NCBI GenBank assembly: GCA_947628815.1
Contig: CANRBJ010000015.1
Location: forward strand, 1-33,495
Origin: an uncultured Clostridia bacterium
GTDB taxonomy: Bacteria; Bacillota; Clostridia; TANB77; CAG-508
DNA: 33,495 nucleotides
Direction: 5' to 3'
The notes under the pieces are model-generated. The model did not search any database, was not told the origin of the DNA, and worked only from the letters and a program-made list of their open reading frames with translations. The position numbers were made by a program, and so were the translations under genes. Positions 10,797 through 12,443 of the stretch are shown piece after piece; the first letter of the stretch is position 1; the number at the start of each line of letters is the position of its first letter.

Positions 10797-11057
10797 GTAA
10801 AAAACACAGACTCATTTTCCTATTATATAGGACGAAATGAATCCGTGTTACCACCTAAATTTATTAATAAATTAATTATTAACCTTATTTTTAGTTATAA
10901 CGTAACCACCGTTTAGCTCTACTTTTATTTTCAAACTAAAACTAAAAAAGTGAAATTTCAGTTAACCTTACGGATTTAAGCTCTCAGCTTTTGCTTAAAT
11001 TCTCTTTTTCCGAAACCAATTTAACTTACTTTGCTTTTTTATAAGCTTTCATATATA
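10797..11057 (-). promoter_or_regulatory. T-box riboswitch (Phe) controlling pheS-pheT-murI
   Basis: The leader senses uncharged tRNA-Phe and switches a terminator. The T-box sequence GGTGGTAACACGG lies at 10855-10843; its UGGU (10853-10850) can pair with the ACCA end of tRNA-Phe. The specifier is read as UUC at 10954-10952, inside GAAATTTCAC near the 3' side of stem I. A 15-bp terminator stem (AACACGGATTCATTT with its partner) follows, ending in a T tract at about 10804-10797, next to the pheS ribosome binding site. The variant T-box core (AACACGG instead of ACCGCGG) keeps the pairing bases. Confidence 0.93.
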
Positions 11058-11101: not shown

Positions 11102-11110
11102 GACTTTTTC
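11102..11110 (+). repeat. Left 9-bp target-site duplication
   Basis: GACTTTTTC here is repeated exactly, in the same orientation, at 11498-11506 on the other side of the foldback element. Confidence 0.7.
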
Positions 11111-11497
11111 CAGGGTGATTTCATAAAAAATTACAAAATTGTAATAAAAGCTACGAAGCCTTGCAGGAAAGCCCCTTTAACAAGGGGGGCTGGCACGCGA
11201 AAGCGTGACTGGGGGTTCTTATTCTTGTTTTCTATTCTCTATATTTTTAATAAACTCGCATTCTACCATACTATATTACTATTTTCTTTTCAGGAAATAA
11301 AAGTACACTTTATACTTATCTATTTTACTTTCTTGACTTTCTTGATTTTACGAATTAAATTTTTAATGTATGGAATATATATGACTATTTAAGAACCCCC
11401 AGTCGCCTATCGGCGCCAGCCCCCTTGTTAAAGGGGCTTTCCTGCAAGGCTTCGTAGCTTTTATTACAATTTTGTAATTTTTTATGAAATCACCATG
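11111..11497. mobile_element. 387-bp foldback/MITE-like element with long inverted repeats
   Basis: The left arm (11111 to about 11222) and right arm (about 11388-11497) are near-complementary over about 105-110 bp, starting CA(G/T)GGTGATTTCAT. Each arm holds a G+C-rich block, with AAGCCCCTTT and GGGGG segments, and a small tip hairpin: CACGC-GAAA-GCGTG on the left, CGCC-GATA-GGCG on the right (read in arm orientation). The two tips differ in sequence but both keep base pairing. The ~165-bp AT-rich centre encodes nothing credible. A perfect 9-bp direct repeat flanks the element, as expected for transposase-mediated insertion. No transposase is present, so it would be non-autonomous. Its G+C blocks contrast sharply with the flanking DNA. 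Confidence 0.8.
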
Positions 11498-11524
11498 GAC
11501 TTTTTCTATTTGAGGTAGTATAAT
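11496..11524 (+). promoter_or_regulatory. Promoter of the PBECR3-like gene, with -35 box at the element junction
   Basis: TATAAT (11519-11524) is 17 bp from TGGACT (11496-11501), which straddles the element end and the right target duplication. Joining the left flank (ending TTGACTTTTTC at 11110) to the right flank gives TTGACT-17-TATAAT, a better promoter, as the presumed state before insertion. Confidence 0.5.
11498..11506 (+). repeat. Right 9-bp target-site duplication
   Basis: GACTTTTTC, exact direct copy of 11102-11110. Confidence 0.7.
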
Positions 11525-11581: not shown

Positions 11582-11998
11582 ATGGAAGAAAAACTAAATG
11601 TAAATTCTATTTTAAAAGCTAATAATAATAATCCTATAAAAATTGGTGAATTATCTAAAAAAGTAATAAATATGTTAAATTTAGATTATTCACCTAGAAA
11701 TATTTTACTAACTGCTGATAGGATTTATCATTGTGAAAAACATAAGAGTGAATATAAAGATGAAGATTCATATAAAAAAAGCATTGAAAGTATTCCAGAT
11801 ATTATAAAATTTCCACATTATATTGGTTTCAATAAATCTAATAACAGCATACAATATGTTAAAAAATTAGATGATACCACATTAGTTGCTGTTAGACTAT
11901 CCTATAAAGGTTCATTGCAATTAAGAACAGTATTTCCTCTAACTGAATTTGATCTTAATAAAAAAATCAATTCAAACAAGCTAATTCCTTACAAATAA
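11582..11998 (+). CDS. PBECR3-like nuclease domain protein (Barnase-EndoU-ColicinE5/D-RelE superfamily)
   Basis: A 138-aa protein resembling the phage PBECR3 group of the Barnase/EndoU/Colicin E5-D/RelE-like RNase fold. Supporting pattern: an N-terminal helix with IGELSKKVINMLNLD, then ILLTADRIYHCEKHKSEY (candidate active-site His/Lys region, about residues 42-60), ESIPDIIKFPHYIGFN, and two C-terminal strands (SIQYVKKLDDTTLVAVRLSY, LQLRTVFPLTE). AAAGGAG at 11570-11576 supports the ATG. Such domains occur in phage polyvalent proteins and toxins. No phage genes and no protein antitoxin adjoin it; a minus-strand RNA terminates into its 3' end. Cleavage activity is an inference from the fold only. 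Confidence 0.6.
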   Translation: MEEKLNVNSILKANNNNPIKIGELSKKVINMLNLDYSPRNILLTADRIYHCEKHKSEYKDEDSYKKSIESIPDIIKFPHYIGFNKSNNSIQYVKKLDDTTLVAVRLSYKGSLQLRTVFPLTEFDLNKKINSNKLIPYK

Positions 11999-12169
11999 AG
12001 AGAATGCGTTGCCACATCCCCTTTATAAATTAGTTATTTGGCAGGTCGGTAACCCTGCATCTCTTTTAAGACCATCTCTGGCGTGATAGCCACCTTGCTA
12101 TCCTCAAATAACCTTTTAATTATTATGCTTAATACATATTTAAATATGTATATTGATAACATATTTTTC
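11990..12169 (-). ncRNA. Structured RNA of unassigned class, convergent with the PBECR3-like gene
   Basis: Between its own promoter and a strong terminator lies a compact fold (12112-12033): closing stem GTTATTTG/CAAATAAC, then hairpin GATAGC-AAGGTG-GCTATC, a short UCUU/AAGA pairing, and hairpin GCAGG-GTTACCGA-CCTGC. Upstream is a perfect 10-bp AT palindrome (ATACATATTT and complement, about 12150-12131). No open frame lies downstream before the terminator, so it reads as a free small RNA rather than a riboswitch. The GGGTTACCGA loop recalls the 3' part of c-di-GMP-I riboswitches, but the rest of that core is missing. Confidence 0.5.
11997..12024. terminator. Terminator of the minus-strand RNA overlapping the PBECR3-like stop codon
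   Basis: On the minus strand AAAGGGGATG pairs with CATTCTCTTT (10 bp, two G-T) around an 8-base loop, followed by ATTTGT. The stem includes the last base of the plus-strand gene's stop codon; on the plus strand it could also end that transcript, though the T tract is short. Confidence 0.6.
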
Positions 12170-12175
12170 ATATAA

Positions 12176-12204
12176 ATTTTATCATTCAACAAATAAGTTG
12201 TCAA
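12176..12204 (-). promoter_or_regulatory. Promoter of the unassigned RNA
   Basis: TTGACA (12204-12199) and TAAAAT (12181-12176) with 17 bp between them, about 60 bp before the structured core. It shows that this RNA is transcribed separately from the 6S candidate upstream. Confidence 0.65.
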
Positions 12205-12225: not shown

Positions 12226-12443
12226 ATAATAACCCCGCCTTAGCCGTCATTACCAAGAGATTTTACGGACCTGTACTCACACAGGTGGGTGCTTACCTAA
12301 ATATTCCTGGGTTTCTTGCATTCGAATAGAGAGCAAGCATACACGCCATATTTAGAGATGGGCTCCCAATTCCGAAACTTGTAGGTTCTAAAATATCTTG
12401 TTTGTCGTACTATGCAGGGAAAATTATTAACTATTCTTTTTAT
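12226..12443 (-). ncRNA. ssrS: 6S RNA candidate
   Basis: About 190-215 nt, minus strand, with its own promoter. The ends pair: CCCTGC (12421-12416) with GCGGGG (12238-12233), extended by UAAUAA/UUAUUA. Inside are long, mostly unpaired flanks that could form the 6S central bubble, including GAACCTACA and GGGAGCCC segments; hairpin CTTGC/GCAAG; and a perfect ACCTGT-GTGAGT-ACAGGT hairpin on the 3' side. Size, closed ends, open middle and isolated transcription fit 6S RNA, which binds sigma-A RNA polymerase. I recognise the GAACCTACA...GGGAGCCC pattern as 6S-like but cannot run a covariance model, so the name is tentative. Confidence 0.5.

Follow-up and report, generated by a model that had tools for sequence, protein, structure and literature searches.

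The locus

The window, i.e., the whole stretch of 33,495 nucleotides analysed here, contains a small structured RNA on the minus strand and, convergent to it, a gene for a predicted nuclease. The features of this locus are as follows:

12204..12176, minus strand: promoter-like site TTGACA-17-TAAAAT, sigma-70-like, 11/12 matches (sequence scan)
12132..12151, minus strand: AT-rich leader hairpin (AUACAUAUUUAAAUAUGUAU), predicted in the whole-transcript fold
12033..12112, minus strand: core of a skipping-rope RNA, RF02924 (cmscan, own model R1, fold, loop complementarity)
12021..11992, minus strand: intrinsic terminator GGGGATGTG-GCAA-CGCATTCTC-TTTATTTG, with a 9-bp stem and a T-rich tail (read from the sequence; fold)
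11582..11998, plus strand: PBECR3/PBECR2 nuclease gene, 138 aa, candidate toxin, convergent to the RNA (Pfam, predicted model, conserved residues)

Several other elements were found in the surroundings. On the strand of the skipping-rope RNA, and upstream of it, lies a 6S RNA (12228-12423, minus strand). A MITE-like element (11109-11499), whose 80-nt inverted arms are 99% complementary, separates the T-box region from the nuclease gene and has three further near-full-length copies (C1, C7, C9) and many fragments in the genome. The T-box leader itself (10825-11051, minus strand) is upstream of the phenylalanyl-tRNA synthetase alpha gene, and a Transposase_31 (YhgA-like) gene occupies 264-1361 on the plus strand.

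Identity and fold of the RNA

A cmscan search against Rfam matched the skipping-rope RNA family (RF02924) to exactly 12033-12112 on the minus strand. The match scored 67.4 bits, where the gathering threshold is 36.7 (E = 2.3e-14, model positions 1-80 of 80). The first-pass annotation had described this segment as a compact multi-hairpin RNA of unrecognised class and had proposed a covariance-model search; this clear match rules out that class assignment, and an unknown RNA class was rejected on the same ground. The RNA is a further member of a known family, whose discovery paper is said to be that of Weinberg in 2017. Our own model R1, of which the window sequence is itself a part, scores it at 72.4 bits.

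The core consists of an 8-bp closing stem and three hairpins. The closing stem (GUUAUUUG/CAAAUAAC) and the two hairpins that had been read by eye in the first-pass annotation (GAUAGC/GCUAUC, and GCAGG/CCUGC with the loop GUUACCGA) are all present in the minimum-free-energy fold of the minus strand, which has an energy of -25.9 kcal/mol and, relative to 200 dinucleotide shuffles, a z score of -3.20. The plus strand of the same segment folds too (-21.1, z = -2.80), so the strand, which had not been named before, is called from the Rfam model together with the promoter and the terminator. Covariation was seen in relatives when conservation of the stems was checked. Among 84 distinct sequences aligned with our own model, consensus pairing was found in 93.5% of the cells versus 69.3% in shuffles, and double changes occurred at 20 of the 22 consensus pairs, figures that are biased in favour of the structure because the alignment was fitted to it.

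In the window RNA, loop 1 (GGU) is complementary to loop 3 (ACC). Across the family, cognate loops form on average 3.37 Watson-Crick pairs and swapped loops 2.81 (0 of 10,000 permutations), and the pairing comprises just two Watson-Crick pairs in 17 of the 84 sequences. A pseudoknot (pk_1) is drawn for the skipping-rope family in Rfam 14, according to part of PMC7779021. The loop 1-loop 3 pairing probably corresponds to this pk_1, so we regard the complementarity as a confirmation. The junction runs from the closing stem through a linker, a hairpin, a second linker, the middle hairpin and a variable stretch to the third hairpin. Its linkers are nearly constant, with 2 nt after the closing stem (79/84), 1 nt before the middle hairpin (83/84) and 0 nt between the third hairpin and the closing stem.

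Transcription signals

The RNA had been credited with its own promoter and terminator. Both are present, as an 11/12 promoter-like site and as a hairpin in the inferred transcript; the promoter part of that claim is tempered by the frequency of such sites in this AT-rich window, where 16 were found against 10.1 in shuffles (sd 3.2). Transcription would start near 12169, and the whole transcript to 11992 (z = -5.89) is predicted to fold into the leader hairpin, the core and the terminator hairpin. Palindromes of other sequence were seen by eye at a similar position in three other loci (L013, L017, L016). The terminator is absent from the list of a consensus scan and forms a strong hairpin in the whole-transcript fold; it may be active in both directions. 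A riboswitch or leader was rejected because the RNA has a terminator at its end and is followed by a convergent gene.

The same signals surround the family at large. Promoter-like sites were found 5' of the RNA in 72% of 183 flanks and in 23% of shuffles, and terminators 3' of it in 81% of these flanks and in 2.8% of shuffles. The earlier description of the RNA as compact, structured and equipped with signals of its own is supported.

The nuclease

The downstream nuclease mentioned in the first-pass annotation was confirmed: the gene at 11582-11998 (plus strand) matches PBECR3 with E = 2.2e-19, and its stop codon lies under the terminator of the RNA. Its product scores 69.9 bits with PF18812 (PBECR3, cut-off 30) and 32.9 bits with PF18810 (PBECR2, cut-off 27.1). 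PBECR is a predicted RNase family reported in phage polyvalent proteins, and a histidine in a helix and a C-terminal Ser/Thr are given as its active-site features in the portion of PMC5512222 available to us. In our alignment, His50 is kept in 75 of 80 relatives and Ser/Thr116 in all 80 (Thr116 in the window nuclease); from their positions, His50 and Thr116 are likely to be these catalytic residues.

An AlphaFold model of the window nuclease had a mean pLDDT of 89.9 from an alignment of 21 rows. The best VIA-align rows were 1tfo, 1v74 and 5znm, and the titles of the latter two name colicin D; the Z scores (7.0, 6.9 and 6.9) are middling and below the level that VIA-align gives for a sure match. 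Most of the next rows were toxins of toxin-antitoxin or contact-dependent-inhibition (CDI) systems, e.g., BrnT, ParE and RelE, and no ToxN-like chain was among the best 50 rows. The predicted fold is thus nearest to that of colicin D. Foldseek found no match in the PDB at E of 0.001 or less. Against predicted viral proteins it gave seven matches, with a minor capsid protein first and polyvalent proteins included. A PDB sequence search with the nuclease found no match, the sole NCBIfam match was to the capsid domain of a MuF fusion, and PADLOC gave one weak match. The PBECR gene on pCS17-A (L251 1914-2345) is annotated as dihydroorotate dehydrogenase, a name that also stands on two Enterococcus plasmids.

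Short PBECR nucleases are found with the RNA

The genome of the window contains two copies of the skipping-rope RNA, each beside a PBECR gene. Counting this genome, RNA matches were found in 23 of 55 genomes of a relatives set (21 over the cut-off) and in 21 of 299 genomes drawn from the phylum (20 over the cut-off), both searches having used stricter filters that lose weak matches. The RNA was not found in any of 14 well-known control genomes.

Among the 299 phylum genomes, Pfam PBECR3 gave 17 matches in 15 genomes. The 13 matches in open frames of at most 509 aa, of which two were under the Pfam cut-off and a few were fragments, all lay 63-222 nt from a skipping-rope RNA (domain edge to RNA edge). 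The remaining four, in giant frames of 1413-2356 aa, were never at an RNA locus, and a permissive Rfam scan and our own model also found no RNA in these four loci. In the same genomes, all 11 PBECR2 matches (two under the cut-off) had the RNA in the locus, and neither of the two PBECR4 matches did. Counted per genome, short PBECR3 and RNA occurred together in 11 genomes, PBECR alone in none, RNA alone in 10 and neither in 278 (Fisher's exact test, p = 1e-14).

A profile built from RNA-neighbouring PBECRs gave 23 matches in 14 of the 55 relatives, all 14 of which carry the RNA. Twenty-two of these matches were within 284 nt of an RNA; the remaining one was 1,104 nt away, and our own model found a weaker RNA copy next to it (L056 546-641). 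Our PBECR profiles and protein queries (L034, L038, L253, L247 and others) were built from genes beside the RNA and are not independent of it; the primary ground for the claim is therefore the Pfam searches.

Protein searches in plasmids and phages fetched 19 loci, of which 18 contained the RNA, or 14 of 15 after near-identical loci (L242/L243/L259, L245/L260, L253/L256) were merged. These loci are chosen matches: all 3 from the first searches, 12 out of 19 from a second, and one, one and two from three others. The matches left aside looked near-duplicate by organism and identity. The only miss was phage Javan254, whose record stops at the stop codon of the gene. Plasmids carrying the pair came from Bacillus subtilis (pTA1060), B. 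velezensis, Fusobacterium, Planococcus, Brevibacillus, Sporosarcina, Priestia, Macrococcus, Treponema and Streptococcus thermophilus, and phages of S. suis were also among the loci with PBECR and RNA. The Azospirillum RNA is a weak match of 24.5 bits. The association between PBECR and the skipping-rope RNA is near certain.

On plasmids, sub-threshold helix-turn-helix proteins are encoded directly upstream of PBECR (L242 1048-1965, L246 1062-1964, L244 1754-1996) and are possibly regulators in the same operon. Plasmids of the pTA1060 type also carry a Bacillus-plasmid RNA (RF01691) slightly downstream of the pair (L242 2577-2632, L243 2077-2132). The name spbA, borne by some phage copies, is reminiscent of a locus for plasmid stability on pHT1030 of Bacillus thuringiensis, reportedly that of Lereclus and Arantes in 1992. 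There was no B. thuringiensis plasmid among 14 matches at E of 10.

The RNA often occurs without the nuclease

The search was also run from the RNA to its neighbours. With our own PBECR profile, PBECR was found within 600 nt of 30 of 54 RNAs in the Rfam-search set, and within 600 nt of 54 of 98 RNAs, among the matches listed, in a set collected from genome contigs with a single DNA sequence pattern (the first pattern tried gave 0 matches in 95 loci). In viral contigs, four of 28 RNAs had PBECR within this distance and 24 did not. The sets share some loci (L107/L034, L100/L048, L110/L031), and two, 12 and three PBECR-less RNAs of the Rfam, DNA-pattern and viral sets, respectively, lay within 500 nt of the end of the locus. 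Among the matches listed in the DNA-pattern and viral sets, 65 PBECR segments were found in 147,465 bases near RNAs and two in 793,059 bases farther off, and both of these were less than 1 kb from an RNA.

Beside the PBECR-less RNAs, no other neighbour recurred, except for pairs of like proteins; the comparison covered genes within 200 nt that were convergent or lay upstream on the strand of the RNA, and genes within 150 nt downstream on that strand. Neighbours seen in single cases included a nucleotidyltransferase of the MNT type (L035) and a HicA-like protein below the threshold (L039). Within these distances, PBECR is thus the one partner family that recurs beside the RNA, which often stands alone. 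The link is lopsided: in the Pfam searches short PBECR2 and PBECR3 nucleases always had the RNA, and the RNA often lacked the nuclease.

Gene order and co-divergence

Among the matches listed, 87 of 106 paired RNAs followed PBECR on its own strand, at a median of 47 nt behind the stop codon, 18 were convergent as in the window (median 29.5 nt), and in one the RNA came first. On a tree of 80 nucleases, which was quickly made from few columns and has several long branches, the convergent order needs five changes, three of them forced by supported branches. That the two stay adjacent although their order is rearranged suggests a functional tie and not a shared transcript. RNA and nuclease also co-diverge (Mantel r = 0.69, 0 of 5,000 permutations; r = 0.53 for pairs below 40% identity), which fits a working pair and may also be plain co-inheritance.

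In one locus (L038) the nuclease is fused to a capsid domain (MuF-PBECR2), and the RNA follows 32 nt behind this fusion gene. Polymorphic toxins usually keep the immunity gene directly behind the toxin, according to the part of PMC5576092 available to us. Two head-to-tail skipping-rope units were observed at some loci (L174 4106-4277, L178 4281-4521, L203 499-706, L227 1511-1716, L028 1380-1584).

Copies in Lactococcus phages

Skipping-rope motifs have already been counted among phage RNAs in a phage-host study (PMC8501573, in the text available to us). In our analysis, a 161-base query around the RNA of Lactococcus phage LW81 matched 18 phage records, 17 of them from Lactococcus, which correspond to 12 distinct phages by name. 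Our own model confirmed the RNA in three fetched loci of these records and in four viral contigs; in the remaining Lactococcus phages the RNA is indicated by DNA similarity. We take these Lactococcus phages to be virulent. In two annotated Lactococcus phage records the RNA starts 2 nt after tRNA-Asp, and among four viral loci ARAGORN placed tRNA-Asp 1-2 nt before the RNA in three, all of which also have a tmRNA. The RNA lies 2 nt behind tRNA-Asp in the phage tRNA cluster at the following positions:

L261 1159-1312: RNA behind tRNA-Asp, Lactococcus phage tRNA cluster
L263 1159-1312: RNA behind tRNA-Asp, Lactococcus phage tRNA cluster
L233 7658-7811: RNA behind tRNA-Asp, Lactococcus phage tRNA cluster

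No PBECR was found near the RNA in the four Lactococcus-type viral loci examined. Searches with four PBECR queries gave no match to a Lactococcus phage, and the window's own nuclease had no match in the phage collection.

A candidate toxin with a proposed RNA antidote

We propose that PBECR is a toxin and that the skipping-rope RNA is its antitoxin, acting by direct binding, a reading to which the association leads us and to which we give a probability of roughly two in three. One module would comprise the RNA (12033-12112) and the gene convergent to it (11582-11998), the PBECR protein being a candidate BECR-fold endoribonuclease toxin. The skipping-rope RNA would be the antidote, presumably expressed as a separate transcript between a promoter and a terminator of its own. 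It would fold into a compact pseudoknotted unit and most likely bind and block the nuclease, as ToxI does with ToxN. If the module were lost with its plasmid, or if a phage shut off transcription, a more stable toxin would be set free, and the module could thus serve in the maintenance of plasmids or prophages or in phage defence. The first-pass annotation had stopped short of this: its structured RNA with its own signals holds, its class does not, and it had drawn no tie between the RNA and the nuclease.

Finding no short nuclease without the RNA in the Pfam searches, and many RNAs alone, is what a toxin and its antidote predict. The RNA behind the MuF-PBECR2 fusion, in the place of immunity genes, was also counted for the antidote. 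On the other hand, the RNA may have another role too, given that about half of the genome RNAs and most of the viral ones lack PBECR.

A bolder version concerns how the antidote might work. Colicin D targets tRNA. The linkers and hairpin order of the skipping-rope junction match the order in tRNA, and this provides a lead towards a tRNA-shaped decoy. Such an RNA would mimic the substrate of a colicin-D-like tRNA-cutting toxin; the pair would hold plasmids and prophages, and Lactococcus phages would carry the RNA alone in their tRNA cluster to disarm such toxins. However, the loop-loop pairing is antiparallel, unlike that of the tRNA elbow, and we treat the decoy as a tentative idea, conceivable and rather unlikely.

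The association by itself carries no sign of the effect, and the RNA could instead be a substrate, guide or activator of the nuclease. Type III toxins, indeed, also process their antitoxin (PMC5086642, in the part available). An RNA-dependent nuclease and its RNA should be lost equally often, however, whereas in the Pfam searches short nucleases were always found with the RNA, and RNAs persist alone; the Lactococcus phages likewise keep the RNA, with no nuclease near it in the four loci examined. We therefore consider this role improbable. An independent function of the RNA, for example regulation in phages or mobile elements with PBECR merely travelling along, would account for the many RNAs without a PBECR neighbour and for the position in the phage tRNA cluster. 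Against it stand the tight spacing (median 47 or 29.5 nt) and the several changes of gene order, and PBECR-less RNAs share no common neighbour family within the distances compared, so that we give this explanation a low chance as well.

Antitoxin action by base pairing with the toxin mRNA, in the style of type I systems, is very improbable. In the window the convergent transcripts could overlap at their 3' ends. However, 87 of the 106 paired RNAs among the matches listed are downstream on the strand of the gene, without antisense overlap. Moreover, for 77 pairs the mean energy between the core and the toxin mRNA from -60 to +60 was -25.7 kcal/mol for cognate and -24.8 kcal/mol for swapped partners (p = 0.47), in a test of the 5' region that took the first in-frame start as a crude start of the toxin gene. 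As there was no cognate excess, pairing of the type I kind was rejected for this region of the mRNA, which makes direct action on the protein more likely. Finally, a chance hairpin or an ordinary 3' UTR without function, for which only the small size speaks, can be dismissed in view of the Rfam match, the double changes at 20 of 22 pairs, and the RNA's own promoter-like site and terminator.

With this proposal, an RNA family typed in Rfam just as an sRNA acquires a role that can be tested, and a predicted family of nucleases, present on small plasmids and in phages across several phyla, acquires a predicted partner. The idea, if true, would widen RNA-based toxin control beyond ToxN-like toxins, offer a reason for the carriage of the RNA by phages, and provide compact modules for work on plasmid stability and phage defence.

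Comparison with known systems

With respect to RF02924, the window RNA is a full-length match above the gathering score with the pseudoknot in line. The Rfam type line of the family reads 'Gene; sRNA' only. The present study adds the PBECR link, the survey of promoters and terminators and the gene orders. No tie of the skipping-rope RNA to PBECR or to toxins was found in the titles and abstract openings of a partial library, and we leave the novelty of the link unclaimed.

The PBECR domains belong to the same families as those of polyvalent proteins and MuF toxins (PMC5512222, PMC5576092), and the MuF-PBECR2 fusion illustrates the likeness. The accessible text of these two papers mentions no RNA partner, whereas here short PBECRs occur with the RNA and giant ones without it. 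Structures of the colicin D type (1tfo, 1v74, 5znm) are the nearest solved folds to the nuclease model; however, immunity to colicin D is provided by a protein, and here it would be provided by an RNA.

Phage TE escape mutants carry pseudo-ToxI, a stand-alone RNA mimic of the antitoxin, as described in part of PMC5086642. A Lactococcus phage with the antidote only would recall this case. It would differ in that its RNA is a gene inside a tRNA cluster and the cognate host toxin is putative.

Another comparison is with type III systems (ToxIN, CptIN, TenpIN), in which, as with the predicted endoRNase here, the enzyme has as its neighbour a structured RNA with a pseudoknot and a terminator. Their antitoxins consist of repeats in tandem that precede the toxin gene within a single operon, according to the same partial source (PMC5086642). 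The toxin family is different here, being PBECR and colicin D-like, and the best structural rows in a check for a ToxN/MazF-like fold were colicin D, BrnT, CDI and RelE/ParE toxins. There is usually one RNA unit and no tandem array, although the short tandem units at the few loci with two recall type III antitoxins. The RNA, moreover, is downstream or convergent with its own promoter-like site and not upstream in an operon. In place of a repeat array upstream, the window has one convergent unit, and among the matches listed 105 of the 106 paired RNAs are downstream or convergent and one is upstream. Nor does the window have one operon with one promoter and a terminator between RNA and toxin, as its RNA is convergent and has its own promoter-like site. 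Because both the upstream repeat array and the single operon are lacking, filing as a type III system was rejected on these two defining features and type III was not assigned. By analogy, the best reading is that the pair would work in the manner of type III systems but differ from them in toxin family and layout.
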